Part shown: in pieces, positions 4,972 to 34,828 of the stretch
Layout: each line of letters begins with the position of its first letter
Position numbering within the stretch: the stretch's first letter is position 1
Source of the DNA: Microbispora sp. ZYX-F-249
GTDB taxonomy: Bacteria; Actinomycetota; Actinomycetes; Streptosporangiales; Streptosporangiaceae
Length of the DNA stretch: 64,000 nt
Assembly: GCF_039649665.1 (NCBI RefSeq)
Contig: NZ_JBDJAW010000027.1
Coordinates: 1-64,000, forward strand
Reading direction: 5' to 3'
The notes under the pieces: model-generated
The model's input: the letters and a program-made list of their open reading frames with translations, nothing else
Told to the model about the DNA's origin: nothing
Databases searched by the model: none
Program-made: the position numbers and the translations under genes

Positions 4972-4985
4972 TGGGAGCGCTCCCA
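4972..4985. promoter_or_regulatory. CebR-type LacI operator 1
   Basis: Perfect 14-bp palindrome TGGGAGCGCTCCCA, the classical CebR-box of actinomycetes. It lies 107 bases upstream of a second identical copy, an arrangement that could allow looping by a tetrameric or paired LacI-family repressor ahead of the sugar ABC operon. No promoter is obvious next to this copy. Confidence 0.85.
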
Positions 4986-5091
4986 AGCGTAGTATGTCCT
5001 ACTATGTCCAGTTGAGCGGCTCTAACCACCCAGGGAGTAACAGTTAGGTTTCGGCATATTGACGCCCGCGTTGCTCATAGAGGACCCTTCG

Positions 5092-5105
5092 TGGGAGCGC
5101 TCCCA
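5092..5105. promoter_or_regulatory. CebR-type LacI operator 2
   Basis: Second perfect TGGGAGCGCTCCCA, 123 bases before the binding-protein start. A -35-like TTGACG is at 5059-5064 but no good -10 follows at normal spacing, so the exact promoter is not assigned. Confidence 0.87.
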
Positions 5106-5228
5106 ACGTGTTCACCAACACGGTGCTCAGCACGAGCACAACCTCTGATCGCGGGCCGTGAGATCGGGGACCGGCCTGGGATGCACCTCCCATGAACGAC
5201 TTCGGGATACCACCTGAGAGGGGTCCGG

Positions 5229-6578
5229 ATGATTAGCAACTCGCGCCGCGGCAGGCTGCTCGCGGTCGCCGCGGTGGCGGCGCTGGCTCTCGGCGCCACC
5301 GCCTGCCAGTCCGACGACAAGGGGACGGACACCGCGTCCGGCGGCGGGGCCACGCAGGCGGCCGGCCCCGTCACCATCACGCTCCAGACGTTCGGCGGCG
5401 GCAAGAACTTCGGCTACAAGGAAGCCGTCGACAAGTGGAACGCCGAGCACAAGGACATCCAGATCAAGTACGACAACCTGACCGACCAGTTCGAGCAGGT
5501 CTACTGGCCCCAGATGATCCAGTGGCTCCAGTCCGGCGCGGGCGCCGGCGACGTCGTCGGCATCGACGAGGGCGGCATGGGCCTCGCCAAGGCGCACCCC
5601 GAGTGGTGGGCCGACCTGGGCGAGTTCGGTCTGCAGAACCGCAAGAACGACTTCGCCGCCTGGAAGTGGGAGAACGGCGTCACCGCCGACGGCAAGCTGT
5701 TCGGCCTCGGCACCGACGTCGGCGGCATGAGCCTGTGCTACCGCCGTGACCTGTTCGAGAAGGCCGGCCTGCCCGGCGACCGCGAAGAGGTCAGCAAGCT
5801 CTGGCCCACCTGGGACGACTTCGTCGCCGTGGGCAAGAAGTTCCAGGACAAGGTCAAGGACACCAAGTTCGTCGACGGCACCAACACGCTCTACAACGTG
5901 GTCCTGGTGCAGGAGGCCGCCAAGAACGGCAACGTCTCCTACTTCGACAAGGACAACAACCTGATCGTCGACAAGAACCCGGCGGTCAAGACGGCCTACG
6001 ACTTCGCCCAGAAGATCAGCCAGGAGGGCCTCACGGCCAAGCTGCGCAACTTCACGCCCGAGTGGAACACCGGCATGAAGAAGTCGCAGTTCGCCACCCT
6101 CGGCTGCCCGTCGTGGATGCTCGGCGCGGTCAGCGGCGACGGCGGCGCCGGACCGGACTTCAAGGGCAAGTGGGACGTCGCGGCGGTGCCCGGCGGCGGC
6201 GGCAACTGGGGCGGCTCCTGGCTCGCCGTGCCGAAGCAGTCGAAGCACCCCAAGGAGGCGGCGCAGGTCCTCGACTACCTGACCGGTAAGGAAGCCGAGG
6301 TCAGCGTCTTCAACTTCGCCGGCAACATGCCGAGCAACATCCAGGCCCAGCAGGACCCGGCCGTCCAGGGCGCGAAGAACGAGTACTTCAACGACGCTCC
6401 CGTCGGTGAGATCTTCGCCAAGTCGGCCTCCGCCCTGCAGCCGGTCTTCCTCGGCGTGAAGCACGCGCAGGTCAAGAACGCGATCGAGTCGGTCGTCTCC
6501 GCCATCGACGACGGCTCCGTGCCGTACGCGAACGGCTGGAAGAAGCTGGTCGACGACGCCGTGAAGGCCGCGGGCTGA
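5229..6578 (+). CDS. sugar ABC transporter substrate-binding lipoprotein (CebE-like)
   Basis: 449-aa extracellular solute-binding protein family 1. The N-terminus is a lipoprotein signal with lipobox ending at Cys26 (LGATAC). The body (TITLQTFGGGKNFGYKEAVDKWN) is typical of carbohydrate-binding proteins anchored on the outer membrane face of Gram-positives. It is the first gene of an operon with two permeases and a beta-glucosidase, and two CebR-type operators precede it, so cellobiose or another beta-glucoside is the likely ligand (inference). AGAGGGG upstream of ATG 5229 is a good ribosome site. The ATPase is missing from the operon, consistent with a shared MsiK-type ATPase encoded elsewhere. 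Confidence 0.9.
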   Translation: MISNSRRGRLLAVAAVAALALGATACQSDDKGTDTASGGGATQAAGPVTITLQTFGGGKNFGYKEAVDKWNAEHKDIQIKYDNLTDQFEQVYWPQMIQWLQSGAGAGDVVGIDEGGMGLAKAHPEWWADLGEFGLQNRKNDFAAWKWENGVTADGKLFGLGTDVGGMSLCYRRDLFEKAGLPGDREEVSKLWPTWDDFVAVGKKFQDKVKDTKFVDGTNTLYNVVLVQEAAKNGNVSYFDKDNNLIVDKNPAVKTAYDFAQKISQEGLTAKLRNFTPEWNTGMKKSQFATLGCPSWMLGAVSGDGGAGPDFKGKWDVAAVPGGGGNWGGSWLAVPKQSKHPKEAAQVLDYLTGKEAEVSVFNFAGNMPSNIQAQQDPAVQGAKNEYFNDAPVGEIFAKSASALQPVFLGVKHAQVKNAIESVVSAIDDGSVPYANGWKKLVDDAVKAAG

Positions 6579-6662
6579 CCCTGCCCGCCAGGTGAGCACC
6601 GGCCCGCCGCAGCGGCACCCCGCCGGCGGGCCGGTCGCCTGCTTTCACCCGAAAGGTAACTC

Positions 6663-7637
6663 ATGAGCCTGCACGTCGACGCCGGGCAACCCACCCGGGC
6701 ACCGATGCCGCCCAGCAGGCGGCGCGCCAAGCCGAGACCGGGCCGGTCCTTCCTGACCTGGCTGGACCTCAAGGCCGCGCCGTATCTCCTGGTCTCCCCG
6801 TACTACATCCTCTTTCTGATCTTCGGGCTCTTCCCGCTCGCCTTCACCCTCTACTACTCGTTCTTCGACTACGACCTCACGGGCACGGTCGAGTGGACGG
6901 GACTCGGCAACTTCACCGCCCTGCTCGACGACGCCGCCTTCTGGCGAGCGGTCGTCAACACCCTCGCGATGTTCCTCATCGCGACGGTCCCCCAGATCCT
7001 GCTGGCGCTGCTGCTCGCCAACGCGCTGAACAAGCGGATGAAGTTCCAGCTGTTCGTCCGGCTGGGCGTCCTGCTCCCCCTCGTGACCTCGGTCGTCGCG
7101 GTGGCGGTCGTCTTCACCCAGCTGTACGGCCGCGACTGGGGCGTGGTCAACTGGGTGCTCGGCTGGTTCGGGGCCGACCCCATCGACTGGAAGGCCGAGC
7201 GTCTCCCCTCCTGGCTCGCCATCGCCACCATGGTCGACTGGCGCTGGACCGGCTACAACGCGATCATCTTCCTGGCCGGCATGCAGACGATCCCCAAGGA
7301 CCTCTACGAGGCGGCCTCGATCGACGGCGCGTCCCGGCGGCGCCAGTTCTGGCAGATCACCGTGCCGATGCTCCGGCCGACGATGATCTTCGTCGTGCTC
7401 AACTCGACCATCGGCGGCCTCACGCTGTTCGCCGAGCCGACCACGTTCTACAACGGCAACGTCCACGGCGGCACGACCAGCCAGTTCCAGACCGTCTCGA
7501 TGTTCATCTTCGAGCAGGGCTTCCGCGAGTTCGACTACGGCTACGCCTCCGCGGCCGCCTGGCTGCTGTTCCTGCTCATCCTCATCGGATCGGCCATCAA
7601 CTTCCTGCTCATCCGCCGGATCGGGGGCAACAAGTGA
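6663..7637 (+). CDS. sugar ABC transporter permease, CebF/MalF type
   Basis: 324-aa integral membrane protein with about six transmembrane segments, starting with one near residues 43-65. The permease EAA loop is visible (EAASIDGASRRRQFWQITVPMLRP is split here as EAASIDGASRRR then QFWQITVPM), which contacts the shared ATPase. AAAGG precedes ATG 6663. Its stop overlaps the GTG start of the second permease (GTGA), so the two should be coupled. Confidence 0.93.
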   Translation: MSLHVDAGQPTRAPMPPSRRRAKPRPGRSFLTWLDLKAAPYLLVSPYYILFLIFGLFPLAFTLYYSFFDYDLTGTVEWTGLGNFTALLDDAAFWRAVVNTLAMFLIATVPQILLALLLANALNKRMKFQLFVRLGVLLPLVTSVVAVAVVFTQLYGRDWGVVNWVLGWFGADPIDWKAERLPSWLAIATMVDWRWTGYNAIIFLAGMQTIPKDLYEAASIDGASRRRQFWQITVPMLRPTMIFVVLNSTIGGLTLFAEPTTFYNGNVHGGTTSQFQTVSMFIFEQGFREFDYGYASAAAWLLFLLILIGSAINFLLIRRIGGNK

Positions 7638-8524
7638 CCACGATCTCCGCGCCCGCCGGCACCCGGCGCCGCACCAAGGCGCCGAGTGGTGCCACCAGCC
7701 TCTGGACCGCCACGCCGATGACGAGGCTCGTCCTCGCGGTCACGATCATCATCTCGGCGTTCCCGCTGTACTACATGATCGTCATCGCCTCGCGGACCAA
7801 CACCGAGGCGACCGACATGCCGCCGCCGTTCCTGCCCGGCGGCAAGCTCGGGGAGAACGTCCAGCGCGTGCTGTCCAACCCCGACGCGCACTACCTGACC
7901 GGTCTCACCAACTCGCTGATCATCGCCTGCACGGTGACGATCTCGGTGGTGTTGATCTCGACGTTCGCCGGCTTCGCGTTCGCCCGGCTGCAGTTCAAGG
8001 GCGGCAAGGTCCTGCTGCTGCTGGTGCTGCTGACGATGATGGTCCCGCTGCAGCAGATGGGCATCGTCCCCCTCTACCGCCTCATGGTCAGCCTCGAATG
8101 GGTCGGCTCGATCAAGGCCGTGATCCTGCCCTTCCTGCTCAACGGCTTCGGCGTCTTCCTCATGACGCAGTACACCCAGCAGGCGGTGCCCAACGAACTG
8201 ATCGAGGCCGCCCGCGTCGACGGCGCCTCCACCCTGCGGATCTGGTGGAACGTCGTCCTGCCCGCCGTACGGCCGGGCATGGGGGTGCTGGGCATCAACA
8301 CGTTCATGCTGATCTGGAACGACTTCATGTGGCCGCTGATCGTGCTGACGCCGGACAACCCGACGGTCCAGGTCGCCATCAACTCGCTCAACGCGAAGTA
8401 CGGGACGGACTACGTGCTGATCTTCAGCGGCACGCTCATGTCGATCCTCCCGCTCATCGTCGTTTTCATCGCGTTCGGCCGACAGATCATCGGCGGACTC
8501 ATGGAAGGTGCGGTCAAGGCGTGA
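7634..8524 (+). CDS. sugar ABC transporter permease, CebG/MalG type
   Basis: 296-aa second permease subunit. The start is GTG 7634, overlapping the previous stop by 4 bases; the longer open frame upstream is a shadow of the first permease. About six membrane helices are present, with the EAA loop as EAARVDGASTLRIWWNVVLP. The C-terminus overlaps the beta-glucosidase start (GTGA). The two permeases form the membrane channel for the sugar delivered by the lipoprotein. Confidence 0.93.
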   Translation: MTTISAPAGTRRRTKAPSGATSLWTATPMTRLVLAVTIIISAFPLYYMIVIASRTNTEATDMPPPFLPGGKLGENVQRVLSNPDAHYLTGLTNSLIIACTVTISVVLISTFAGFAFARLQFKGGKVLLLLVLLTMMVPLQQMGIVPLYRLMVSLEWVGSIKAVILPFLLNGFGVFLMTQYTQQAVPNELIEAARVDGASTLRIWWNVVLPAVRPGMGVLGINTFMLIWNDFMWPLIVLTPDNPTVQVAINSLNAKYGTDYVLIFSGTLMSILPLIVVFIAFGRQIIGGLMEGAVKA

Positions 8525-9957
8525 CAACGCAAGACACACGACCCGAGGCAGAAGCTCCCAGCCTGATGTTCCCCACCGGGTTCGTCTGGGGCGCCGCCAC
8601 CTCCGCGTACCAGATCGAGGGCGCGCTCACCGCGGACGGGCGGGGCCGCTCCATCTGGGACACCTTCTGCAGCCAGGACGGGCGGATCGTGGGCGGCGAC
8701 AACGCCGAGACCGCGATCGACCACTACAACCGGTACCGCGATGACGTCAAGCTCATGGCGGACCTCGGCCTCACGGCCTACCGGTTCTCCGTCTCCTGGC
8801 CGCGGATCCAGCCCGACGGCTCGGGCGCCTACAACGCCAAGGGCCTCGACTTCTACAAGAGGCTCGTGGACGAGCTGCTCAGCTACGGCATCGACCCGTG
8901 GCTGACGCTCTACCACTGGGACCTCCCCCAGGCTCTGGAAGACGCGGGCGGGTGGCCTTCGCGCGACACGTCGAAGCGCTTCGCCGACTTCGCCGCGACC
9001 GTGCACGCCGAGCTCGGCGACCGGGTCAGGCACTGGAGCACGGTGAACGAGCCCTGGTGCTCGGCGTTCCTCGGCTACGCCTCCGGCGAGCACGCCCCGG
9101 GACGGCGCGAGCCGGCCGCCGCGCTGCGCGCCGCGCACCACCTCAACCTCGCGCACGGCCTGGCGGTCCAGGCGATGCGGGCGCAGAACGCCGACTCGCA
9201 GATCGGCGGGTGCGTCAACGTCTACCCGGTCACGCCCGCCACCGGCAGCGAGGCCGACCAGGACGCCGCCCGCCGCATCGACGGGCTGCAGAACCGGTTC
9301 TTCCTGGACGCGCTGCTCAAGGGCGCCTACCCCGAGGACGTGCTGGCCGACCTCAGCCACCTGTCCGACATGGAGTTCATCCGGGACGGCGACCTGGCGA
9401 CGATCTCCGCGCCGCTCGACATGCTGCTGATCAACTACTACAGCCGCTTCACCGTGTCGGGCGCGCCGGGCGGCGCCGCCTCGGCCGCCGCCGCGCCGAC
9501 GGACTCCGGCTCGCCGTGGATCGGCAGCGAGCACGTCGGCTTCGTCAACGGCGGCCGCCCGGTCACCTCCATGGGCTGGGAGGTCGACGACAGCGGCCTG
9601 TACGAGATGCTGCGGCGCATCGCCGACGAGTACCCGCGCGTCCCGCTCTACATCTCGGAGAACGGCGCGGCCTACGACGACCTCCTCGGCGAGGACGGCA
9701 CCGTGCACGACCCCGAGCGGGTCGCCTACATCGACGCCCACCTGCGGATCTGCCACACGGCCATCGAGTCGGGCATCCCGCTCCAGGGCTACTTCGCCTG
9801 GTCGCTCATGGACAACTTCGAGTGGGCGTGGGGGTACGGCAAGCGTTTCGGTCTCGTCTACGTCGACTACGAGACCCAGGCCCGCACCATGAAATCGAGC
9901 GCTTTGTGGTATGCCGACACCATCAGACACGGCGGACTGCTGAGTCGGGCACAATAA
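8521..9957 (+). CDS. GH1 beta-glucosidase (BglC-like)
   Basis: 478-aa glycoside hydrolase family 1 enzyme without signal peptide, so intracellular hydrolysis of the imported beta-glucoside is likely. The acid/base Glu177 is in STVNEPW and the nucleophile Glu380 is in LYISENG. N-terminal FPTGFVWGAATSAYQIEGA is the usual GH1 opening. The GTG start at 8521 overlaps the permease stop. It is the catabolic gene of the uptake operon, as bglC is in the Streptomyces ceb locus. Confidence 0.95.
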   Translation: MTTQDTRPEAEAPSLMFPTGFVWGAATSAYQIEGALTADGRGRSIWDTFCSQDGRIVGGDNAETAIDHYNRYRDDVKLMADLGLTAYRFSVSWPRIQPDGSGAYNAKGLDFYKRLVDELLSYGIDPWLTLYHWDLPQALEDAGGWPSRDTSKRFADFAATVHAELGDRVRHWSTVNEPWCSAFLGYASGEHAPGRREPAAALRAAHHLNLAHGLAVQAMRAQNADSQIGGCVNVYPVTPATGSEADQDAARRIDGLQNRFFLDALLKGAYPEDVLADLSHLSDMEFIRDGDLATISAPLDMLLINYYSRFTVSGAPGGAASAAAAPTDSGSPWIGSEHVGFVNGGRPVTSMGWEVDDSGLYEMLRRIADEYPRVPLYISENGAAYDDLLGEDGTVHDPERVAYIDAHLRICHTAIESGIPLQGYFAWSLMDNFEWAWGYGKRFGLVYVDYETQARTMKSSALWYADTIRHGGLLSRAQ

Positions 9958-9986
9958 GCGCAGAACGCGATAAGGGGGCAGTATAA

Positions 9987-11006
9987 ATGAACGGGGACCG
10001 CCGTTCCGGAGGCCGGCCGACTCTGGAAGCGGTCGCCGCGCGCGCCGGAGTCGGCCGCGGCACCGTGTCGCGGGTCATCAACGGCTCGCCCAAGGTGAGC
10101 GACCGAGCCCGCGACGCGGTGTTACTGGCGATCCAGGAGCTCGGCTACGTGCCCAACCGGGCGGCGCGCACCCTCGTGACGAACCGGACGGACACCATCG
10201 CGCTGGTGGTGTCGGAGTCGGAGCAGCGCGTCTTCGACGAGCCGTACTTCGCCGGGCTGATCCGCGGCATCGGCTCGGCGCTGTCGGAGACCGGCCTTCA
10301 GCTCATCCTCACGATGGCGCAGAACCGTGCCGAGCACGACCGGCTGGAGCACTACCTGACCGGACAGCACGTCGACGGCGTGCTGCTCACCTCGGTGCAC
10401 GGCGCCGACCCGCTGCCGGGGCGGCTGGAGGAGATGGGCGTGCCGACCGTGCTCGGTGGCCGCCCGGTCGGGCTCAACCCCTACAGCTTCGTCGACATGG
10501 ACAACCGGGCCGGCGCCCGGCAGGCGGTCAAGTATCTGCTCTCCAAGGGCCGGACGAAGATCGCCACCATCGCCGGCCCGCAGGACATGGGCGTGGGTGT
10601 CGACCGTCTCGCCGGGTACCGCGACGCGCTGCTCGCCACCGGCATGAGCGAGCGCGTGTCGTACGGCGACTTCTCCGAGGAGAGCGGCTCGGCCGCCATG
10701 CGCGAGCTGCTCGCCCGCCATCCCGATCTGGACGCCGTGTTCACGGCCTCCGACCCGATGGCGCTCGGGGCGCTGCGCGTGCTGAAGGAACAGGGCATGG
10801 TCGTGCCCGACGACGTCGCGGTGATCGGCTTCGAGGATTCCAAGGTGGCGCTGCACACCGATCCGCAGCTGACGAGCGTGCACCAGCCGACCGAGGCCAT
10901 GGGCCGCCAGATGGTCCAGCTCCTGATCGCCCGGATCAACGGCGAGCCGCTGGAGCAGCCGGTCGTCATCCTCGACACCCACCTGGTGATCCGCGCCTCC
11001 GCCTGA
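9987..11006 (+). CDS. LacI-family transcriptional repressor (CebR-like)
   Basis: 339-aa regulator: LacI helix-turn-helix at about residues 12-60 (TLEAVAARAGVGRGTVSRVING, then the hinge YVPNRAARTLVT), followed by a periplasmic-binding-protein-like ligand domain. AAGGGGG precedes ATG 9987. It is co-directional with, and 29 bases after, the beta-glucosidase gene. The five CebR-type boxes in this window are its obvious candidate targets, with a beta-glucoside such as cellobiose as the probable inducer. That link rests on family knowledge and proximity only. Confidence 0.93.
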   Translation: MNGDRRSGGRPTLEAVAARAGVGRGTVSRVINGSPKVSDRARDAVLLAIQELGYVPNRAARTLVTNRTDTIALVVSESEQRVFDEPYFAGLIRGIGSALSETGLQLILTMAQNRAEHDRLEHYLTGQHVDGVLLTSVHGADPLPGRLEEMGVPTVLGGRPVGLNPYSFVDMDNRAGARQAVKYLLSKGRTKIATIAGPQDMGVGVDRLAGYRDALLATGMSERVSYGDFSEESGSAAMRELLARHPDLDAVFTASDPMALGALRVLKEQGMVVPDDVAVIGFEDSKVALHTDPQLTSVHQPTEAMGRQMVQLLIARINGEPLEQPVVILDTHLVIRASA

Positions 11007-15200: not shown

Positions 15201-15376
15201 CGGGTGCGCAGGCCCTCGTGCCGGGCCGCGAGGTCGGCGAACGCCCCGTCGAGGGCGTCCGGGTCGAGGGGTCCGCGCAGCCGGTGGACGAGGTACATGG
15301 TGTACGAGGCGTCGCGCGGGTTCAGCTTCTGCAGGAGCCACAGCCGTTCCTGGCCCGGCGACAGGGGCGCCCTCAT
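12266..15376 (-). CDS. NRPS module C-A-T, predicted basic amino acid
   Basis: 1036-aa synthetase, last gene of the operon. Condensation domain about residues 1-430 with intact HHIIGDG (His133-His134, Asp138). Adenylation domain about 450-930 (TSGSTGRPKGVA, TYGPTE, RTGDRARW). Carrier domain at the C-terminus with LGGHSL serine. Specificity residues aligned by eye to GrsA read D-T-E-D-V-G-T-V-I-K; two acidic pocket residues (239 Glu, 278 Asp) suggest a basic side chain such as Lys, Orn, Arg or a derivative. No epimerase or TE. ATG 15376 overlaps the previous stop (ATGA). It would condense its amino acid with an upstream acyl chain and pass it to another protein. Confidence 0.9.
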   Translation of the reverse strand: MRAPLSPGQERLWLLQKLNPRDASYTMYLVHRLRGPLDPDALDGAFADLAARHEGLRTRFEEEDGVPWAVAEPAGTPGILPPVERIQAGDEEHARRLVAERVNAPFDLAEGVPLRVAVIAIGPLDHVLCVTMHHIIGDGWSLGILLDDLAECYTARLHGRAPKLAPLPVQPSDYARWQRRRAERAVPYWQERLADPPPPDLPCGIGGESPGGDGDEDRAAYQIVRTGREVADELDRLAREHRTTLFTVLMTAYQVLLHRHTGHTDVLVGTAVAGRDRVELEAMIGYLSQTVVLRGDLDGDPSFVDLLGRTRQEALTAMSRPSVPFERIGHPVEALMPTMFILHTQVSGPTRPFGDLSVGAFPHGYQQVKLGLYVEAWLEDGEIAMSFGHDGSSGSPHEAEAVRRLADRFLVLLESVVAGPRRRISELRVWTDDDEADIRSMAGDGAETPGPGVPEMVAEAVRRTPGAVAVACGETEVTYAELDRRAARLAAALRARGVRRGDVVGVCLPRSVEAITALLAVWRAGAAYLPFEPDEPEERLAFALADAGATHVITNRALPAGLTAVDPLADADGTADGGPGETRPGDVAYVIFTSGSTGRPKGVAVEHRAIAARIRWMREEYALAPGDRVVQFASLSFDTHLEEVFPALAAGATLVLLPGGAATLPDLLAAPGGERVTVLDLPTAYWHHLVEEIDQIAWPPALRLVVIGGEQASGGAVARWRDRFGDGVRLLNTYGPTEAAVIATAADLTATPYGRPPIGRPIGATTVHLLDAAGAPVPKGAIGELVIGGAGVARGYLRRPALTAAAFVPDPLGPPGSRRYRTGDRARWNQDGTLEFLGRIDGQLKVRGFRIEPGEVEARLLDHPGVGQAFVTVHAEELVAYVTGTATGEELAAHLARTLPRHLVPAAWVVLDSLPLTSRGKVDRAALPAPVRASSAGHVPPDSDAELLVAEIWAELLGVASIGVHDDFFTLGGHSLLATRIAARLRRATGVEVPVRTIFERRTVAELAVALEDLLVAELEDMSEEEAERLLSSAGH

Positions 15377-18755: not shown

Positions 18756-18964
18756 TCGCCCCGGTCGCGTACGCTCGGCGTTCCCTGGTCGCGTACGCTC
18801 CGCGGCCGCATGTCGGTCCACACCGTCTCGATGTGGTCCAGGCATTCCTGGCGGGTGCCCGCGAAGCCGGTGGGCCGCCACCCGGCGGGCGGCTCGCGGT
18901 CGCTCCACCATACGGAGAACTGCTCCTCGTCGTTGACGACCACGAGCATCGGGGAATCGGTCAT
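18752..18964 (-). CDS. MbtH-like NRPS activator
   Basis: 70-aa member of the MbtH family, small chaperone-like partners of adenylation domains. Conserved positions are seen: NDEEQFSVWW, PPAGWRPTGFAGTRQECLDHI and WTDMRPRS. The last about 16 residues are an extension produced by a 24-bp direct repeat (RSVRDQGT/PSVRDRGE), not part of the family core. It starts one base after the stop of the upstream C gene and overlaps the next. Confidence 0.95.
   Translation of the reverse strand: MTDSPMLVVVNDEEQFSVWWSDREPPAGWRPTGFAGTRQECLDHIETVWTDMRPRSVRDQGTPSVRDRGE
18763..18800. repeat. 24-bp period direct repeat in the mbtH-like 3' end
   Basis: GGTCGCGTACGCTC occurs at 18763-18776 and again at 18787-18800. 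It duplicates eight codons at the C-terminus of the MbtH-like protein, probably by slippage. Confidence 0.8.
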
Positions 18965-18965
18965 G

Positions 18966-22512: not shown

Positions 22513-22513
22513 C

Positions 22514-27000: not shown

Positions 27001-29616
27001 GTACATGCGCGACCCGGGCGGGCCGTACGGGTCGGGGACGAACCGGTCCGCGGTCAGGCCGGGCCGGTTCAGGTAGCCCCGCGCCAGCCGGTCGCCGCCG
27101 AGGTAGATCTCCCCCGGCACCCCGGCGGGCACCGGCCGCAACCGCTCGTCCAGCACGTACGCCCGCGCCCCGGGCAGCGGCGAGCCGATCGGCAGGCTCA
27201 CGCTCGCCTCGGCCGGGCCGTCGGGAGCGGGCAGCCGGGCGACGTCGTAGGTGGTCACGCCCACGGTGGCCTCGGTCGGCCCGTAGTGGTTGACGACCCG
27301 GCAGCGGCCCAGCGCCGCGAGCTCGGCGGCCCAGCCGCGCGGGGCCGCCTCGCCGCCCAGCAGCAGCAGCTTCCTGGGCAGCAGGTCGTCCGGCCCGGCG
27401 TCCGCGAGCAGAGCGGCGAGGTGCGACGGCGTGATCTTGAGGTAGTCGATCCCGGTCCGCCGGAAGATCTCCGCCAGTTCGGGACCGGCGGTGCGCGAGG
27501 GCACCAGATGCAGGGTGCCGCCGGTCATCAGGCACAGGTAGAAGACCGTGACGCCGAAGTCGAAGGCGAGTGACTGGAGCAGGGCGAAGGACGAGCCCGG
27601 CTCCACGCCCAGCCGCTCCCGCACCCCGGCGAGGTAGACCATCACCTCGTGGTGCTGCACCGCGACGCCCTTGGGCCGCCCGGTGGTGCCGGAGGTGTAG
27701 ATCACGTACGCGAGGTCGCCCGGCGCCGCGGACTCCCAGGGGTCAACCGGCTCCGGCGCGTCCTCCCCAAGGTGCACGGCGGTGATGTCGTCCGGGAGCC
27801 GGTCGTGCAGGTCCGGGCTGGTCACGACGATCGACGCCCCGGCGTCGGCCAGCACGTACTCGAGCCGGCCGCGCGGATGCTCCGGGTCGAGCGGCAGGTA
27901 GGCCGCGCCCGCCTTGAGCACGCCGAGCACCGCGACCGCGAGCCCGGTGGACTGCTCCAGGCAGATCGCCACGCGGTCGTCGCGCCGCACGCCCAGCCCG
28001 CGCAGCCGCCGGGCGAGCCGGTCGGCCGCGGCGTCCAGCTCGGCGTAGGTGAGGGCGTCGCCGCCGCAGGCGACGGCGGTCGCGGACGGGGTGCGGGCCG
28101 CCTGGGCGGCGATCACCTCGTGTAGCGCCGGCGCCCCGCCGAACGCGTCCGCGTCGGGCGCCCCGGCCTCGGGCCCCGCTCCCGCGAACCCGAGCACGCG
28201 GCCGCGCTCGGCCGCCGGGAGCAGCTCGAGGTCCGACACCCGCGCGTGGGGGTCGGCGACGATCGACCTGAGCAGGTTCTCGAAGCACTCCGCCAGGCGC
28301 GCGATCGTGGCCGGCCGGAACAGCTCGGTGCGGTAGGTGAGGTTGCCCACCAGGCCGTCGCCCTGGTCCATCAGGTACAGCGCGAGGTCGAACCGGCTGG
28401 CGGTGACCTCGAACGGGTAGGCCGCCATGGCCAGGCCCTGGGTCCGCAGCGGGGCCGACCGGTAGTTCTGCAGCGCGAACATCACCTGGAACACCGGCGA
28501 CCTGCTCACGTCGCGCTCGACGCCGAGCTCGCCGACCAGCCGGTCGAAGGGCAGCTCCTGGTGCGTGTAGGCGTCCAGCGCCGTCTCGCGCACCCGGCCG
28601 AGCAGCTCGGTGAAGGTCGGGTCGCCGGACAGGTCGGCCCGCATCGGCAGCGAGTTGATGAAGAGCCCGACCACCCGCTCCAGCTCCGGCAGGTCGCGTC
28701 CCGAGACGGGCGACCCGACCGCGAAGTCGTCCTGGCCGGAGTAACGCCCGAGGAGCACCTGGAAGGCGGCCAGCAGCGTCATGTACAGCGTCGCGCCGTT
28801 CGCCCCGCCCAGCTCCGTGAGCGCGTCCACCAGCTCCCGGTCCAGCGCGACGTCGTGGGCGGCGCCCGCCGATCCCTGCTCCGGCGGGCGCGGCAGGTCG
28901 GTCGGCAGCTCCAGCGGCGGCAGCCCGGCCAGCCGCTCCCGCCAGTAGCGGATGTCGTCCTCGTGGGTCCGCCCGCGCTCCCACAGGGCGTAGTCGCCGT
29001 ACTGCACGGGCGGCGCGGCGAGACCGGCGTCGGTCCCGGTCCGGTACGCCTCGTGCAGGGCGAGCAGCTCCTCCATCACGATGTCGCACGACCAGCCGTC
29101 GGTGACGGCGTGGTGCATGGTCAGGAGCAGCACGTGCTCGCGGGCGCCGAGCCGGACCAGGAGCACCCGCAGCAGCGGGCCGGTCGCCAGGTCGAACGGC
29201 CGGGCCAGCTCCTCCTGCACGGACTCCCGCGCGGTGGCGGCGTCGTCGGACACCCGCAGCTCGACCAGCCGCAGCTCCACCAGGGGCTCGTCGTCCAGCA
29301 CGATCTCCGGCGTCCCGTCGTCGGTGGTGACGAACCGGGTGCGGAGGCTCTCGTGGCGCCTGGCGACCTCGGCGAGGGCGCGCTCCAGGGCCGCGTGGTC
29401 GATCTCGCCGCCCTCCAGCCGGACGGCGAAGGCAACGGTGTAGGCGGTGGTGCCCGGGGCGTACTGCTCCAGGAACCACAGGCGCTCCTGCGCGTGCGAA
29501 AGCGGCGGGTGGGTGCCGGCCGGCCGCGGCGGCACGGTGACCCTCGCGGCTTTCCCGGCCCTGAGCCGCTGCGCCAGCAACGCCTGTTTGGCCGGTGAGA
29601 GGCCGGTCCGGGTCAC
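24037..29616 (-). CDS. NRPS C-A-T-TE fused to an MFS exporter
   Basis: 1859-aa fusion, first gene of the operon. C domain about residues 30-460 (HHAVTDG 168-174); A domain about 500-980; carrier Ser1032 (LGGHSLLAM); TE-like alpha/beta-hydrolase about 1085-1330 with Cys1164 in GHCGLG, Asp1280 (GERDP) and His1310 (EAGHFF); then from about 1393 a 12-helix MFS transporter with no stop in between. Specificity residues read D-F-T-K-L-G-H-V-G-K, close to Asp/Asn codes. GTG 29616 has GAGGTG eight bases upstream; earlier in-frame codons lack a ribosome site. It presumably adds the last residue, releases the peptide and exports it. Internal restart at Met1339 (ATG preceded by GGAGGGG at too short a spacing) is possible. 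Confidence 0.88.
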   Translation of the reverse strand: MTRTGLSPAKQALLAQRLRAGKAARVTVPPRPAGTHPPLSHAQERLWFLEQYAPGTTAYTVAFAVRLEGGEIDHAALERALAEVARRHESLRTRFVTTDDGTPEIVLDDEPLVELRLVELRVSDDAATARESVQEELARPFDLATGPLLRVLLVRLGAREHVLLLTMHHAVTDGWSCDIVMEELLALHEAYRTGTDAGLAAPPVQYGDYALWERGRTHEDDIRYWRERLAGLPPLELPTDLPRPPEQGSAGAAHDVALDRELVDALTELGGANGATLYMTLLAAFQVLLGRYSGQDDFAVGSPVSGRDLPELERVVGLFINSLPMRADLSGDPTFTELLGRVRETALDAYTHQELPFDRLVGELGVERDVSRSPVFQVMFALQNYRSAPLRTQGLAMAAYPFEVTASRFDLALYLMDQGDGLVGNLTYRTELFRPATIARLAECFENLLRSIVADPHARVSDLELLPAAERGRVLGFAGAGPEAGAPDADAFGGAPALHEVIAAQAARTPSATAVACGGDALTYAELDAAADRLARRLRGLGVRRDDRVAICLEQSTGLAVAVLGVLKAGAAYLPLDPEHPRGRLEYVLADAGASIVVTSPDLHDRLPDDITAVHLGEDAPEPVDPWESAAPGDLAYVIYTSGTTGRPKGVAVQHHEVMVYLAGVRERLGVEPGSSFALLQSLAFDFGVTVFYLCLMTGGTLHLVPSRTAGPELAEIFRRTGIDYLKITPSHLAALLADAGPDDLLPRKLLLLGGEAAPRGWAAELAALGRCRVVNHYGPTEATVGVTTYDVARLPAPDGPAEASVSLPIGSPLPGARAYVLDERLRPVPAGVPGEIYLGGDRLARGYLNRPGLTADRFVPDPYGPPGSRMYRTGDLGRWSGTGDLEFLGRRDLQVKIRGYRVELGEVESVLADHPDVAQAVVEPRGEQLVAYLVPAGGEAGETAEVRAWLADRLPAYMVPSRYAWLDELPLKSHGKVDRSRLPEPEADVAAAEYVAPAPGAEEDVARVWAEVLEVERVGALDDFFALGGHSLLAMRVIARLRKAHPDRQITVLDVFKHRTVRELARLLTAEGDVPRSLLHRLTPARRATTTLVCVPYGGGSAVVYQPLADALPDDWALYSVAVPGHELGEVARPFDEVVADCVAEICEIMDRNGGSLVLYGHCGLGVMLSAEIARKLEADGRTVDALYLGGVFPFARPGRGLNWLGTFFDRLTSDQQRVNALTAAGLDVEDLGREQVKLIVRNRREGTRAAERYFTRIFEEGGGPALRAPVISVVGERDPAAEFYQERYKEWHCLSDDTACVVLDEAGHFFLRYRSDELAEIVTGTHAALASGRTEGMERDETRTWWLQGVSSRSAGTGTGTGPGAGAAQDDPVGPDGPAGAQVRVGPPPSMRRFLLVAAGQLVSITGSALTEFAIPLWIYLTTGSLARFALFSVLGLLPGMLVAPLAGAIVDRFDRRKVMIAGDAAAGGTQLVLGLLLWTGNLQVWHIYPLLVCLSVALTFQRLAYTSAIPQLVPKRFLGHANGVVQMATGTAQLIVPLIAVGLMATIGLEGILVIDVASYVVATLTIVLIRFPATMAWKRRESVLAEMLGGIRHSWGNRGFRAMLFYFAVLNVFLSPLFMMISPLVLSFATLAEVGRVSFAGGLGAFLGGLAMAAWGGPRRRRLYGVLLSTLALSVFCLLTGLYQDLFLIAVGAFGMSLCLTLLNGVYATIIQVKVPQRFHGRVIALNTLVAWSTLPIGFGLVAPYGAQVFEPLLAADGPLAGTVGVVLGTGPGRGLGFMYACFALAIAVIALVGMRVRVLRRFDADVPDALPDDVVGYQALTERVAAARADTQAGTRADTRADTRAAREPEKEHA
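24066..24113. repeat. 12-bp tandem repeat at the 3' end of the NRPS-MFS gene
   Basis: Four units of about CCGCCCGTGTGT (the last two imperfect) encode a TRAD-type four-residue repeat near the C-terminus of the transporter part. Confidence 0.8.
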
Positions 29617-29824
29617 GACGCCGGCACCTCGGTTGAAATTTGCATTAAGAACATGGCATTCCTTTGTGCGCTCTGCGCCCCGGTCGCCGGCGAATCGATG
29701 CGAAGACGCGGGCGGCCAACGACCCGGCGGCGGAATCACCGCCGGTGAGCTTCCTGCCTGGTGCCTGGCGCGACACGGATTCCAATGCCGCTCGCGCCGG
29801 TAACCCCCATTTCGGACGCATGAG

Positions 29825-29838
29825 TGGGAACGCTCCCA
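29825..29838. promoter_or_regulatory. CebR-type LacI operator 3 (NRPS side)
   Basis: TGGGAACGCTCCCA, one base from the perfect palindrome. It begins nine bases downstream of the putative minus-strand -10 of the NRPS operon, where a bound repressor would block initiation. Confidence 0.75.
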
Positions 29839-29847
29839 CGGCAGTGG

Positions 29848-29877
29848 AGGCTAGGGATCTGGACTTTCATTCGTCAA
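29848..29877 (-). promoter_or_regulatory. putative NRPS operon promoter
   Basis: On the minus strand, -35 TTGACG (29877-29872), an 18-base spacer and -10 TAGCCT (29853-29848). Same layout as the promoter before the aldose epimerase gene. Confidence 0.55.
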
Positions 29878-29990: not shown

Positions 29991-30019
29991 TTGACAAGGC
30001 CACTTACCGGACCTACGCT
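29991..30019 (+). promoter_or_regulatory. promoter of the dehydrogenase/GH1 operon
   Basis: Consensus -35 TTGACA (29991-29996), 17-base spacer, -10 TACGCT (30014-30019). The operator at 30023 covers the expected transcription start. Confidence 0.7.
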
Positions 30020-30022
30020 CCG

Positions 30023-30036
30023 TGGGAGCGCTCCCA
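30023..30036. promoter_or_regulatory. CebR-type LacI operator 4
   Basis: Perfect TGGGAGCGCTCCCA, three bases after the -10 of the dehydrogenase operon promoter. Confidence 0.88.
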
Positions 30037-30117
30037 ATATGGGTGCTCCTGTCCCTGGCAGCGAAGCCCGGCGTCGAGCGCGCCCTCGACCAGAGACGCA
30101 CCAGGAGCCGACCACTT

Positions 30118-31041
30118 GTGACCGTCACCGCTGCACCGGCCCGGAGCCCGCTGTATGCCCTCGACGACGGGGATCTCCGCTCACTCCTCCTGATCCGGCA
30201 CTTCGAACGCGCCCTGCTCCACCTGTTCGAGCAGGGCGTGCTGAGCGGCACCACCCACACCTGCCTCGGACAGGAGTACATCCCGGTCGCGCTGTCGGCC
30301 CTGCTCCGCGACGCCGACTTCGTGTTCAGCAACCACCGGGGGCACGGCCACTTCCTCGCCCGCCATCCCGACCCGCACGGCCTGCTCGCCGAGATCATGG
30401 GGCGGGAGGGCGCGCTGTGCGGGGGCGTCGGCGGCAGCCAGCACATCTACCACCGGCGTTTCCTGTCCACGGGCGTGCAGGGCGAGAGCCTGCCCGTGGC
30501 GACCGGGGTGGCCCTGAAACTGGCCGGCACGGGTGCGCTGGCCTGCGCGTACATCGGTGACGGCACCTGGGGCGAGGGCGCCGTCTACGAGGCGCTGAAC
30601 ATGGCGTCCCTCTGGAGGGTGCCGCTGCTGGTCGTGGTCGAGCACAACGGCATCGCCCAGTCGACCCCCACGTCCGCGCAGATGGCGGGCACGATCGCCG
30701 CCCGGGCGGCGGCCTTCGGCGTCCGCCACCACCACGTCTCGTCCACCGACGCCGGTGAGATCAGGCAGATCCTCGCCCCGCTGATCGACGCCGTGCGGAC
30801 CGAACCGTCCCCGCTGGTGGTGGAGTTCGCCACGCACCGCCTCGGGCCCCACAGCAAGGGCGACGACACCCGGCCGCCGGAGGAGATCCGCCGGGCCGCG
30901 GAGTCCGACTGGTACGACCGGTACGCCGAGGCCGATCCCGAGCGGTTCGCCCGGATCGACCGGGAGCAGCGGGAGCTCGTCGAGCGGGTGGTCGCCGAGG
31001 TCTCCGCCCGCCCCCACGCACGGCCGGGGGGAGCGGCGTGA
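30118..31041 (+). CDS. 2-oxoacid dehydrogenase E1 component, alpha subunit
   Basis: 307-aa thiamine-diphosphate enzyme subunit of the pyruvate/branched-chain/acetoin dehydrogenase group. The TPP/Mg motif is GDGTWGEG...N (Gly147-Asn161) and the active-site loop FSNHRGHGH is present. GTG 30118 with AGGAG ten bases upstream is chosen; an earlier frame opening at 30022 would lie inside the operator. It forms a heterotetramer with the next gene (4-base overlap). It would decarboxylate a 2-oxo acid and acylate the lipoyl group of the E2 encoded downstream. The 2-oxo acid is not evident. Confidence 0.9.
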   Translation: MTVTAAPARSPLYALDDGDLRSLLLIRHFERALLHLFEQGVLSGTTHTCLGQEYIPVALSALLRDADFVFSNHRGHGHFLARHPDPHGLLAEIMGREGALCGGVGGSQHIYHRRFLSTGVQGESLPVATGVALKLAGTGALACAYIGDGTWGEGAVYEALNMASLWRVPLLVVVEHNGIAQSTPTSAQMAGTIAARAAAFGVRHHHVSSTDAGEIRQILAPLIDAVRTEPSPLVVEFATHRLGPHSKGDDTRPPEEIRRAAESDWYDRYAEADPERFARIDREQRELVERVVAEVSARPHARPGGAA

Positions 31042-32015
31042 CCAGGGTCTCCGAGCATCTCAACCAGGCGCTGCACGACCTGATGGAGTCCGACCCCTCG
31101 GTCCATCTGCTGGGCGAGGACGTCGGCGACCCGTACGGCGGCGCGTTCAAGGTCACCCGGGGACTGTCGGGCCGGTTCGGCTCGCGGGTGAGGTCCACGC
31201 CGCTGAGCGAGGGCGCGATCGCCGGGGTCGGGGCCGGGCTGGCCCTGGCCGGCGACAAGGCCATCGTCGAGATCATGTTCGCCGACTTCGTGGCGCTGGC
31301 GTTCGATCAGATCACCAACTTCGCCGCCAAGTCCACCTCGATGTACGGCAGGCCGGTGCCGGTGCCGCTCGTGGTGCGCTGCCCCACGGGCGGCAACCGC
31401 GGCTACGGCCCGACCCACAGCCAGAACCCGCAGAAGCACTTCATCGGCGTGCCGGGGCTGTCCCTGTTCGAGATGACGCCGTTCCACGACGCGGGCGAGC
31501 TGTTCGCCCGGATGTTCGGCCTCGGGCGGCCCTGCCTGTTCTTCGAGGACAAGGTCCTGTACACGCGGCAGATGCACCGCGTCGACGACCTGTTCCGGTA
31601 CGAGCTGGTGGACGACGTGGCGCGGGTGTACCTGGACGGCGCGGGCCGGCCCGACTGCACGCTGGTCACCCACGGCGGGCTCGTCCACCGGACGCTCGAC
31701 GCCATGCGGGCGCTGCTCCTGGAGGACGAGCTGGTCTGCGAACTGCTGGTGCCCGCCCAGCTCTACCCCGTGCCCCGTCTGCCGGGGCTGGAGGACGCGC
31801 CGCACGTCTGCGTCGTCGACGACGGGACCGAGGGCGGCACCTGGGCGGCCGAGGTGGCCACGGCGCTCTACCCGCGCCTGTGGGACCGCCTGCGCCGCCC
31901 GATCACGCTTGTCAACTCGGCGGACCGGGTGATCCCCGCCGCCCCCCATCTGGAACGCGAGGTGCTCGTGCAGGCCGACAGCATCCGGGCCGCGGTGAGG
32001 GAGGCGCTGTCGTGA
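31038..32015 (+). CDS. 2-oxoacid dehydrogenase E1 component, beta subunit
   Basis: 325-aa transketolase-like pyrimidine-binding subunit: GEDVGDPYGGAFKVT at the start, STPLSEGAIAGVGAGLALAG, and RCPTGGNRGYGPTHSQ, all typical of E1beta. GTG 31038 overlaps the alpha stop (GTGA), and its own stop overlaps the E2 start, so 1:1 translation with its partners is likely. It supplies one face of the TPP site. Confidence 0.92.
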   Translation: MTRVSEHLNQALHDLMESDPSVHLLGEDVGDPYGGAFKVTRGLSGRFGSRVRSTPLSEGAIAGVGAGLALAGDKAIVEIMFADFVALAFDQITNFAAKSTSMYGRPVPVPLVVRCPTGGNRGYGPTHSQNPQKHFIGVPGLSLFEMTPFHDAGELFARMFGLGRPCLFFEDKVLYTRQMHRVDDLFRYELVDDVARVYLDGAGRPDCTLVTHGGLVHRTLDAMRALLLEDELVCELLVPAQLYPVPRLPGLEDAPHVCVVDDGTEGGTWAAEVATALYPRLWDRLRRPITLVNSADRVIPAAPHLEREVLVQADSIRAAVREALS

Positions 32016-33205
32016 CCGAGTTCCGCGTACCCAAGCTCAACAACAACGACACGTCGTACATCCTCGTCGAGTGGCTGGCCGGGGACGGGCAGCAGGTGCG
32101 GGACGGCGAGCCGATCGTGCTGCTGGAGACGTCCAAGGCGACGGAGGAGGTCGAGGCCCCGGCGGACGGCGTCCTGCGGCGGCTGGTCGCCGAGGGGGCC
32201 GAGTGCGAGCCGGGGCAGGTGATCGCCCGCCTGCTCGGGAGCGCGGACGAGCCCGTCCGGGAGGCCGCCGGGCAGACCACGGACGGGAACCCGCACGGAA
32301 CGGACACTCCCGCCCCTCCCGGCGACGCCGCCGGCGTGGTCGTCACGGGGCCCGCGCGCGACCTGATCGAGGCGCACGGCATCGCCATGGAGCGGGTGTA
32401 CGCCCTCGGCCGGAAGGTGATCAGGCGCAGCGACGTCGAGGAACTCCTCGGCGGGCAGGAGCCCTCCCCCGCCGCGGACGACGCCCCGGCAGCCGGCGAC
32501 GACGCACAGTGGATCACGCTGTCGCGGGCGCAGCAGCGGACGGCCGAGGTCGTCGAGCGGTCCCGGCGCGAGATCCCGGCGGCCTTCACGGCGATGAACG
32601 TCGACGTGACCGAGGTCCTGTCGCTCGCCCGCGACCTCACCCGCAAGCTGCGCGCCCTGGTCGGCCTGCCCGAGATGGTGGTGAAGGCGACCGGCGGGCT
32701 GCTCGACCGCTTCCCGATGTTCTTCGCGGAGCCCGGCTCGGACACGCGGGGCCCCGGCTTGCGGGCGAGAAGGGCCGTCACCGCGGACGTGGGCGTGACG
32801 GTCGACGTGGGCCAGGGGCTGTTCATCCCGGTCGTCCGCGACGCCGGCAACCGGACGCTCGCCGAGATCGCCGCCGACCTGGCCGGCTTCCGCACGACCG
32901 CGCTCAGCGGGTCGTTCCGGGAACGCGATCTGCGGGGCGGCGCCATCACGCTCACCCTGCACACGCACGACGGCATCGTGTTCGCCGTCCCCATCGTCTT
33001 CCCCGGCCAGACGTGCGCGCTGTCGCTGACCGCGCCGCGCTCGGAGGTCGTCCAAGACGGCACGGGCTTCGCCGTACGCAAGACCGCCACACTGGGCCTC
33101 GCATACGACCACCGTTACATCAACGGCCGCGATGCCGCGGAGTTCCTGCGCGAGCTCCGCACGGCGCTCGAATCACCCGCGCGTTTCCTCACTGAGAATG
33201 GATGA
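32012..33205 (+). CDS. 2-oxoacid dehydrogenase E2 (lipoyl acyltransferase) with altered active site
   Basis: 397-aa protein: lipoyl domain (residues 1-78, lipoylated Lys42 in ETSKATEEVEAP), a linker, a peripheral-subunit-binding domain (about 112-148, TGPARDLIEAHGI), and the catalytic domain (about 170-397). The active-site segment is YDHRYINGRD: His367 is kept but the usual Asp of HxxxDG is Asn371. GTG 32012 overlaps the E1beta stop. No E3 (dihydrolipoamide dehydrogenase) is nearby. It could pass acyl groups to CoA or, speculatively, to a carrier protein of the adjacent NRPS. Confidence 0.9.
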   Translation: MTEFRVPKLNNNDTSYILVEWLAGDGQQVRDGEPIVLLETSKATEEVEAPADGVLRRLVAEGAECEPGQVIARLLGSADEPVREAAGQTTDGNPHGTDTPAPPGDAAGVVVTGPARDLIEAHGIAMERVYALGRKVIRRSDVEELLGGQEPSPAADDAPAAGDDAQWITLSRAQQRTAEVVERSRREIPAAFTAMNVDVTEVLSLARDLTRKLRALVGLPEMVVKATGGLLDRFPMFFAEPGSDTRGPGLRARRAVTADVGVTVDVGQGLFIPVVRDAGNRTLAEIAADLAGFRTTALSGSFRERDLRGGAITLTLHTHDGIVFAVPIVFPGQTCALSLTAPRSEVVQDGTGFAVRKTATLGLAYDHRYINGRDAAEFLRELRTALESPARFLTENG

Positions 33206-33209
33206 AGCC

Positions 33210-34532
33210 ATGAACTCACCCGCACGGTTTCCGGCCGACTTCGTCTGGGGCGCGTCCACCGCGGCCTACCAGATCGAGGGCGCGACCACGGAGGACGGCC
33301 GCGGGCCCTCGGTGTGGGACACGTTCTGCGCGGTCCCCGGCAACGTACGCGACGGTGACAGCGGCGAGCACGCCGCCGACCACTACCACCGTTACGACGA
33401 GGACCTGGACCTGATCGCCGATCTGGGCCTGGGCAGCTACCGCTTCTCCATCGCCTGGCCGCGGATCCAGCCGACCGGATCGGGCAAGCCCAACCAGAAG
33501 GGCATCGACTTCTACCGCCGGCTCGTCGACGGGCTGGCCGAGCGCGGCGTCCGGCCGATGGCCACGCTCTTCCACTGGGACCTGCCGCAGGAGCTGCAGG
33601 ACCGGGGAGGCTGGGAGAACCGGGACACGGCCGAGCGCTTCGCCGAGTACGCCGAGATCTGCTACGACGCCCTGGAGATCAGGGACTGGCTGACGATCAA
33701 CGAGCCCAAGACGGTGGTCGACTGCGGCTACCGGTTCGGCCAGCACGCGCCGGGCTTCAAGGACGACGCGCGCGCGTTCGTCGCCTGCCACCACCTGCTG
33801 CTCGCGCACGGCCTCGCCTCCCGCGTGCTGCACGAGCGGCACCCGGGCCGCCGCATCGGGCCCGCGCTCAACCTGCACCCCACCTACCCGGCCGACGACA
33901 CGCCGGAGGCGCGCGAGGCGGCCCGCCACCAGGACGGGCTGGAGAACCGGCTCTACCTCGATCCCGTCTTCAAGGGCAGCTACCCCGAGGACACGCTGCG
34001 CTGGATCTCCGAGCGCGGCCCGATGGCCGACCACATCCTGGACGGGGACCTCGGGATCATCAGCGAGCCCATCGACGTCCTGGGGGTGCAGTACTACACC
34101 CCGGTCTTCGTGGACGGCAAGGGCGAGCGGGTCTTCCTGCACGAGCGGGCCCAGGCCGAGTGGCTGGAGATCTACCCCGAGGGCCTGCACGACATCCTCG
34201 TCCGGGTGCAGCGGGACTACCCCGGCGTGCCGATGGTCATCACCGAGAACGGCCTGGCCACCGTGGACGGGGTCGACGCCGACGGCCGCGTCCGCGACGA
34301 CCGGCGGATCGCGTACCTGCGCGGCCACCTGAGCGCCGTGCACCGCGCGATGGAGGAGGGCGCGCAGGTCGAGGGCTACCACGTGTGGTCGCTGCTCGAC
34401 AACTTCGAGTGGGCCGAGGGATACAGCCAGCGATTCGGCATCGTGCACGTCGACTACGCGACGCAGAAGCGCACCCCCAAGGACAGCGCGCTCTGGTACC
34501 GCGACGTCGTGAAGAGCGGCGAGCTGCGCTGA
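33210..34532 (+). CDS. GH1 beta-glucosidase, second copy
   Basis: 440-aa intracellular family-1 glycosidase. Acid/base Glu165 (LTINEPK) and nucleophile Glu346 (VITENG) are in place; the residue after NEP is Lys, not the usual Trp. ATG 33210, four bases after the E2 stop, is chosen; ATG 33198 overlaps that stop and is possible. It is clearly different from the copy at 8521. As the last gene of the operon under a CebR-type operator, it may cleave imported glucosides or a glucosylated intermediate of the peptide cluster; the first is simpler. Confidence 0.93.
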   Translation: MNSPARFPADFVWGASTAAYQIEGATTEDGRGPSVWDTFCAVPGNVRDGDSGEHAADHYHRYDEDLDLIADLGLGSYRFSIAWPRIQPTGSGKPNQKGIDFYRRLVDGLAERGVRPMATLFHWDLPQELQDRGGWENRDTAERFAEYAEICYDALEIRDWLTINEPKTVVDCGYRFGQHAPGFKDDARAFVACHHLLLAHGLASRVLHERHPGRRIGPALNLHPTYPADDTPEAREAARHQDGLENRLYLDPVFKGSYPEDTLRWISERGPMADHILDGDLGIISEPIDVLGVQYYTPVFVDGKGERVFLHERAQAEWLEIYPEGLHDILVRVQRDYPGVPMVITENGLATVDGVDADGRVRDDRRIAYLRGHLSAVHRAMEEGAQVEGYHVWSLLDNFEWAEGYSQRFGIVHVDYATQKRTPKDSALWYRDVVKSGELR

Positions 34533-34533
34533 C

Positions 34534-34626
34534 GCCCGGCCCGGCCCCGCCGGGCCGGGCCCGCCTTCCGCCGCCTGGAGCGGCTCCTCCCGGCCTCCCG
34601 CACGCCCCCGGCGTGCGGGAGGCCGG
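34534..34626 (+). terminator. double hairpin terminator after the GH1 gene
   Basis: Two GC-rich perfect inverted repeats in series: an 11-bp stem (34534-34544/34550-34560) and a 16-bp stem (34590-34605/34611-34626) with a 5-base loop, followed by TCCTTC. Confidence 0.7.
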
Positions 34627-34776
34627 TCCTTCGCCATGCCCTCGCGCAGCGACGTCTCCGCGCGTGTAAGTTTCAGCACGGACCGGTGGGCGGTCGCCCA
34701 TGCACGTGCACGTGAGATGCGGTCTGCGGCAAATCGGTGCCGTTATACCGATCTACGCGATAATCCTGAGATTAAG
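34627..34776. other. intergenic stretch without a gene
   Basis: No coding frame with a ribosome site is seen between the terminator and the next promoter. The sequence becomes AT-richer towards its right end, as expected for a promoter upstream region. Confidence 0.5.
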
Positions 34777-34805
34777 TTGACGCGTCCGACGAAAAGACTT
34801 AGCTT
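34777..34805 (+). promoter_or_regulatory. promoter of the aldose epimerase/kinase genes
   Basis: -35 TTGACG (34777-34782), 17-base spacer, -10 TAGCTT (34800-34805), with the operator starting ten bases later. Matches the NRPS promoter in both hexamer type and operator distance. Confidence 0.6.
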
Positions 34806-34814
34806 TACCGGTTA

Positions 34815-34828
34815 TGGGAGCGCTCCCA
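34815..34828. promoter_or_regulatory. CebR-type LacI operator 5
   Basis: Perfect TGGGAGCGCTCCCA, 106 bases before the aldose epimerase start. Confidence 0.88.

Follow-up and report, generated by a model that had tools for sequence, protein, structure and literature searches.

Does the repressor of cellulose-sugar uptake also hold the promoter of a peptide synthetase in the soil actinomycete Microbispora sp. ZYX-F-249? The question is raised by the first 64,000 nucleotides of contig NZ_JBDJAW010000027.1 (assembly GCF_039649665.1; hereafter the window, 64 kb), in which a cebEFG-bglC-cebR operon and a nonribosomal peptide synthetase (NRPS) system carry copies of the same 14-bp box. The LacI-family protein encoded at 9987 is very probably a CebR/CelR orthologue that represses the NRPS, uptake, E1/E2-glucosidase and epimerase-kinase operons until cello-oligosaccharides enter the cell. 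The boxes, the promoters, their conservation, the sites at cellulase genes and the orthology are the observed part of this reading.

Boxes and promoters in the window

A scan of the window for TGGGAGCGCTCCCA with up to one mismatch gives exactly five copies. Exact copies lie at 4972..4985 (box 1, of the CebR type, 5' of cebE), 5092..5105 (box 2, 124 bp ahead of the cebE start), 30023..30036 (box 4, candidate operator of the E1 operon) and 34815..34828 (box 5, ahead of the epimerase gene), and the copy at 29825..29838 (box 3, lying over the start point of NRPS transcription) is TGGGAACGCTCCCA, with one mismatch to TGGGAGCGCTCCCA. All five positions given in an earlier note on this DNA, four exact and one with a single mismatch, are correct. 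Only 0.02 copies are expected by chance, and five were reached in none of 100 shuffles; copies with two or three mismatches are at the chance level, the window holding 8 matches in total up to three mismatches against 8.35 expected. Chance or a repeat element as the source of the boxes is ruled out by reversed-pattern controls and by conservation. The claim that no further copies exist holds for the window at up to one mismatch but not for the genome (8.78 Mb in 206 contigs), where 15 sites are exact and 5 more have one mismatch, the reversed pattern giving a single hit; 15 of these 20 sites lie outside the window.

Promoters were sought as a TTGACA-like −35 hexamer with up to two mismatches, a spacer of 15–19 bp and TAnnnT, followed by the box. 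On the minus strand, TTGACG-18-TAGCCT at 29848..29877, which is marked by conservation as well as by the scan, stands 9 bp from box 3, and box 3 lies about 210 bp 5' of the NRPS start if the GTG at 29616 is taken as that start. Since this minus-strand promoter is aimed at the NRPS gene, the NRPS has a promoter and a box of its own. On the plus strand, TTGACA-17-TACGCT (29991..30019) stands 3 bp from box 4 of the E1 operon, and TTGACG-17-TAGCTT (34777..34804, end approximate) stands 9 bp from box 5, which precedes the aldose-epimerase/kinase pair. The gaps of 9, 3 and 9 bp bear out the earlier statement that copies 3 to 5 lie within ten bases 3' of a −10 hexamer; neither 4972 nor 5092 has a promoter ahead of it by the same scan. 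The earlier note had put one of copies 3 to 5 on the NRPS side. By promoter direction only 29825 is the NRPS gene's own, whereas 30023 serves the divergent E1/E2-glucosidase operon and is ruled out as an NRPS operator because its promoter points at E1 alpha.

The candidate repressor and its sites in the genome

The uptake operon on the plus strand encodes a cebE-like sugar-binding protein (5229..6578), a cebF-like permease (6663..7637), a cebG-like permease (7640..8524, start approximate), a bglC-like GH1 beta-glucosidase (8521..9957, start approximate) and the LacI-family repressor (9987..11006), so that the LacI gene is encoded together with a cebEFG-type transporter and a beta-glucosidase, as is characteristic of CebR/CelR. 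The best solved relative of the 9987 protein is PDB 5ysz, listed as 'Transcriptional regulator, LacI family', with an E-value of 1e-123 over 330 residues against 3e-45 for the next solved sequence, and the recognition helix, GVGRGTVSR, is the same in both proteins. We take 5ysz to be Thermobifida fusca CelR. Among 30 LacI-family loci compared, out of about 50 LacI-family matches in the genome, only the 9987 protein and C8:102978 (contig C8) have R-G at the two key helix places, which we presume to be those of E. coli LacI. A search of 14 further genomes of the genus finds CebR once in each, at 95–99% identity. An R-A paralogue on C44 adjoins a box with A at the third base, TGAGAGCGCTCCCA, the neighbours of which are genes for a binding protein, GH1, LacI and GH81, and another R-A paralogue on C34 adjoins the A-type box GGAGAGCGCTCTCC. 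In a survey of 2012, the exact box is given to CelR in several actinobacteria, and GGAGAGCGCTCTCC is placed at a related S. roseum operon (PMC3377646). The 9987 protein is likely to be the binder of the boxes, and the proposal of the earlier note that it is the putative common cellobiose-type repressor of the uptake operon and the NRPS gains support from its helix, the cellulase-gene sites, the NRPS-aimed promoter and conservation. A LacI paralogue on C9, the promoter of which holds an exact box, is rejected as binder on account of its helix, which has P-A instead of R-G.

TGGGAGCGCTCCCA is identified as the CebR/CelR box because several of the genome sites stand at cellulase genes, and its presence at such genes across the genome is what a CebR/CelR regulon entails. 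GH6-CBM2 genes on C3 and C29 have one site each, a GH48-CBM2 gene followed by a GH9 gene on C21 has two, and another GH9 gene on C37 and a PL8 lyase gene on C1 have sites as well; a site on C44 is the likely operator of a paralogous operon. Three of the 15 outside sites stand at specialised-metabolism genes, namely an exact box at a second C-A-T-TE-MFS NRPS gene on C3, next to genes for TauD, carrier-domain and glycosyltransferase proteins, a site at a stand-alone condensation-type gene on C20 (TTGACC-17-TAGCCT-3-box) and a site at a SARP-type regulator gene on C5 (TTGACA-17-TACCTT-3-box). The link to NRPS genes drawn in the earlier note therefore stands for the cluster in the window, but one cluster is too narrow, since the C3 NRPS and further loci of the family also carry boxes.

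Two of these loci have features of their own. At C9:14180 the promoter of the LacI gene, which is followed by a Ser/Thr-kinase gene, holds an exact box, and 45 bases comprising promoter and box (L061:12525) are identical in all 15 genus genomes; kinase genes adjoining LacI genes with CelR sites have been reported in two relatives (PMC3377646). On C5 (148329-168328, L060) the SARP gene is accompanied by genes for radical SAM, MauE and signal-peptidase proteins, by two ABC genes and by a small Cys-bearing open reading frame with no Pfam match, a locus resembling a ribosomal-peptide cluster.

Conservation and natural variants in the Streptosporangiaceae

A search for relatives of E1 alpha found 429, the best 80 of which were kept, and a locus was called divergent if an NRPS start lies within 800 bp of E1 alpha on the opposite strand. 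This arrangement occurs in 19 of the best 80, from Microbispora, Microtetraspora, Planobispora, Streptosporangium, Sphaerimonospora and one further member of the Streptosporangiaceae. Box 3 with one mismatch is present in 19/19, the differing base varying, and exact box 4 in 18/19, L082 being without it. Among the other 61 loci, one of which (L089) has less than 800 bp of upstream sequence, two (L111 and L113) have a box with up to one mismatch within 800 bp upstream. In an alignment with the window as reference and rows cut at box 3, invariant bases make up 6/6 of the NRPS −10, 5/6 of the −35 and 12/14 of box 3 against 5/166 of the NRPS leader. When 548 windows of 14 bases are ordered by conservation over all 20 rows, box 4 comes first and box 3 second; over 10 diverse rows box 3 comes first and box 4 third. 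A conserved box at the promoter of the cluster is what a CebR-controlled biosynthetic cluster calls for. The spacing of boxes 3 and 4 is 197–200 bp, near whole helical turns, in 17 of the 18 divergent loci with both (207 bp in L121); DNA looping between the two is conceivable.

The promoter-plus-box pattern is found in 15/15 Microbispora genomes, the reversed control giving 0, and the NRPS type of the window in 13/15; it is missing from G152, where NRPS1 gives no match at 1e-100, and from G158, where the contig breaks off within the gene. Among 26 loci that match the NRPS1 N-terminus, the 12 orthologues with upstream sequence all carry both boxes. The other 14 are boxless within 1.5 kb and comprise the cut G158 copy, two in a G150 operon (L280 and L272), the boxes of which stand further upstream than 1.5 kb, and 11 others. 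The C3 NRPS is present in 14/15 genus genomes, with an exact box in every one (14/14). In G152, the ceb operon is followed by GH1 and epimerase genes, with an exact box at each, and the 18 kb examined contain no NRPS1 and no E1/E2; a 6-kb gap at this locus contains open reading frames. G150 differs in its NRPS set and gives no match to E1/E2, yet an imperfect and an exact box, 176 bp apart, lie ahead of its NRPS and GH1 genes. These two natural variants make the box-3 NRPS look like a replaceable insert at a sugar locus.

Beyond the genus, the TE-MFS query matches in 62 of 150 Streptosporangiaceae genomes. The first 40 non-genus rows in E-value order with the query start matched were sampled, with 2.6 kb around the expected NRPS start. 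A box lies 39–600 bp upstream in 18 of these 40 C-A-T-TE-MFS NRPS genes, about 0.24 sites being expected in the 104 kb at host-genome density; some of the 18 loci probably overlap the divergent E1/NRPS set. In a tree built from 59 N-terminal pieces, of which 25 have a box, the box label needs at least three changes (mean of shuffles, 19). The bearers fall into three groups: 14 rows are of the window type, 6 make up a second group and 5 are of the C3 type, these last including one Acrocarpospora and one Sphaerimonospora row. This tree rests on about 235 residues, is midpoint-rooted with long branches, and scores L272 of G150 as boxless though its operon has boxes. A single gain with two losses would also account for the three changes. 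It is an even call whether the large C-A-T-TE-MFS NRPS family of the Streptosporangiaceae came under the cellulose repressor more than once, different NRPS sets occupying the place next to cebR and the imperfect box being retained, with the peptides as dedicated products of feeding on plant biomass and the mismatch as a lower sugar threshold.

The genes behind the boxes are as follows. The leftward NRPS system spans about 17 kb on the minus strand and begins with the C-A-T-TE-MFS gene (24037..29616, GTG start at 29616 inferred), in which an MFS exporter is fused behind the thioesterase in a single reading frame; further NRPS genes (C-A-T; A-T; C; C; C-T; A) occupy 12266..24050, limits approximate. 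The A-domain pockets, compared by eye with specificity codes, are presumably Asp-like in the first gene, Gly-like in A-T and specific for a basic residue in C-A-T, a weak assignment. A leader open reading frame of 13 codons, MFLMQISTEVPAS (29613..29654, minus), overlaps the NRPS start by GTGA in 12/12 genus orthologues with upstream sequence, and in 9/12 its position 3 is a TTA codon. A TTA codon may mean bldA-type control, and one has been reported in txtR (PMC5332605). On the plus strand lie genes for a pyruvate-dehydrogenase-like E1 alpha (30118..31041, GTG start inferred), E1 beta (31038..32015), an E2 acyltransferase (32000..33205, start approximate) and a second GH1 beta-glucosidase (33198..34532, start approximate), then for aldose 1-epimerase (34935..35831, start inferred, the open reading frame opening at 34860) and an APH/fructosamine-kinase-like phosphotransferase (35838..36845). 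The E1-alpha gene is 91–96% identical to that of nine Microbispora records (L065-L073), which places the host in or near that genus. E1/E2 genes also lie beside C-A-T-TE-MFS NRPS genes in boxless loci (e.g. L109, L115 and L130), so that their role may lie in the peptide pathway and not in sugar use.

Proposed mechanism, rival explanations and known systems

The position of box 3, where transcription from the NRPS promoter would begin, together with a LacI-family candidate binder, points to promoter blocking that is relieved by imported cello-oligosaccharide. Binding, repression, the inducer and the idea of a weaker site are predicted from sequence. Without cello-oligosaccharides, CebR would occupy the 14-bp boxes; at 29825 it would cover the start point of the NRPS promoter and block transcription, at 30023 and 34815 it would block the E1/E2-glucosidase operon and the epimerase-kinase pair, and at 4972 and 5092 its own uptake operon. 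Cellulases would release cello-oligosaccharides, CebEFG would import them and CebR would let go, so that the genes for uptake, hydrolysis, E1/E2 and the peptide synthetase would be expressed together. Blocking of this kind with cello-oligosaccharide relief has been reported for CebR/CelR at cellulose genes (PMC5332605, PMC3377646). Since the NRPS box has one mismatch at every divergent locus seen, binding there may be weaker and may open at lower sugar. Imperfect boxes at the thaxtomin genes of S. scabies are described as more weakly bound (PMC5332605), and by analogy a weaker site may also fit NRPS box 3. The retention of the arrangement in relatives suggests that the peptides would be made when the bacteria feed on plant material.

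Several observations weigh against CebR control as outlined here. In the family sample 22/40 NRPS genes have no box. The C20 gene has a box in 5/11 orthologues (at least 78% identity), with a twelfth, broken copy having none. The SARP box is seen in 1/15 genus genomes, the host's own. A constant place for the SARP site in the regulon is not borne out, because the best matches in the other 14 have no box with up to two mismatches, these matches being 42–61% identical and perhaps not orthologues. Four sites are not clearly ahead of a sugar or biosynthetic gene: C1:287684, the nearest gene of which has no Pfam match; C3:266023, overlapped by a HATPase open reading frame; C9:11656, at the end of the Ser/Thr-kinase gene; and C28:67743, where the adjoining LPMO10-CBM2 gene ends before the site. 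A third R-A paralogue, on C16, has no A-type box that could be found beside it, and R-G is shared by C8:102978, which is 46% identical to the 9987 protein.

This last paralogue is the most likely candidate if another LacI protein binds the NRPS box and the NRPS answers to another sugar, and the genome, with its many LacI-family matches, offers others. No box with up to three mismatches and a central CG occurs within the 4 kb surrounding C8:102978, however, nor any site with up to one mismatch on contig C8, and the 9987 protein has the full 5ysz helix and two exact boxes at its own operon, which makes this explanation improbable. That the boxes serve only the sugar genes (E1/E2-glucosidase and epimerase), with the NRPS as a bystander, would agree with the assignment of box 4 to the E1 operon and with G152, which keeps its boxes before GH1 and epimerase genes without an NRPS or E1/E2 in the stretch examined. 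Box 3 has its own NRPS-aimed promoter with conserved −10, −35 and box, though, the exact box of the C3 NRPS adjoins no sugar operon among the genes scanned, and G150 keeps the imperfect box ahead of a different NRPS set, so that a bystander NRPS is highly improbable. It is possible, though rather doubtful, that CebR, though it binds, contributes little and that the NRPS stays silent unless another regulator or a developmental signal acts. Thaxtomin synthesis needs TxtR besides the release of CebR (PMC5332605), and the leader with its TTA codon and the boxed SARP gene on C5 would fit such a second input; against it, no activator gene was recognised among the window open reading frames scanned, which were part of the total.

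CebR control of the NRPS is closest to the thaxtomin system of Streptomyces scabies/scabiei, where the repressor is of the same family and the box of the same type, the NRPS product is linked to the uptake of cello-oligosaccharides, and imperfect boxes stand at biosynthetic genes (PMC5332605, PMC12527672, PMC8914351). The precedent cited in the earlier note is thus apt in that CebR is known over an NRPS cluster, but not as to "the same box", since the thaxtomin cluster has imperfect copies and not the exact box (PMC12527672). The thaxtomin boxes, which work together with the activator TxtR, lie inside txtB and 786–900 nt ahead of txtR/txtA, whereas the box of the window lies on the core NRPS promoter. 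As to a box at a pathway-specific activator gene, the thaxtomin-type arrangement, no activator was recognised in the part of the window open reading frames scanned, and a boxed SARP gene lies on C5. Unlike thaxtomin, two NRPS genes carry the box across the genus Microbispora, and the link reaches other genera. The CelR regulon of Thermobifida fusca and other actinobacteria is alike in operon layout, box and cellulase targets. The survey of 2012 describes S. roseum CelR sites in the vicinity of a protein kinase and of pyruvate-dehydrogenase-related genes, and one inside a polyketide synthase gene of A. mirum; its main text, supplementary tables aside, does not mention 'nonribosomal' or 'peptide synth' (PMC3377646). 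The pyruvate-dehydrogenase-linked sites of S. roseum are probably relatives of box 4. No published record of CebR/CelR boxes on NRPS promoters of the Streptosporangiaceae was found in titles and abstract openings, supplements and subscription papers lying outside the search, and nothing on Streptosporangiaceae was found in the accessible part of PMC4052901. CebR over an NRPS cluster is known from thaxtomin; boxes directly on core NRPS promoters, their presence at two NRPS genes genus-wide and their conservation across genera look new.

In rare actinomycetes, many NRPS clusters are not expressed in culture because the right signal is missing. At the promoter level, a candidate inducing signal for such clusters can be read from the DNA. 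If CebR control of the NRPS is true, tying peptide making to feeding on cellulose would be an old habit of the family, not one confined to a few plant pathogens.

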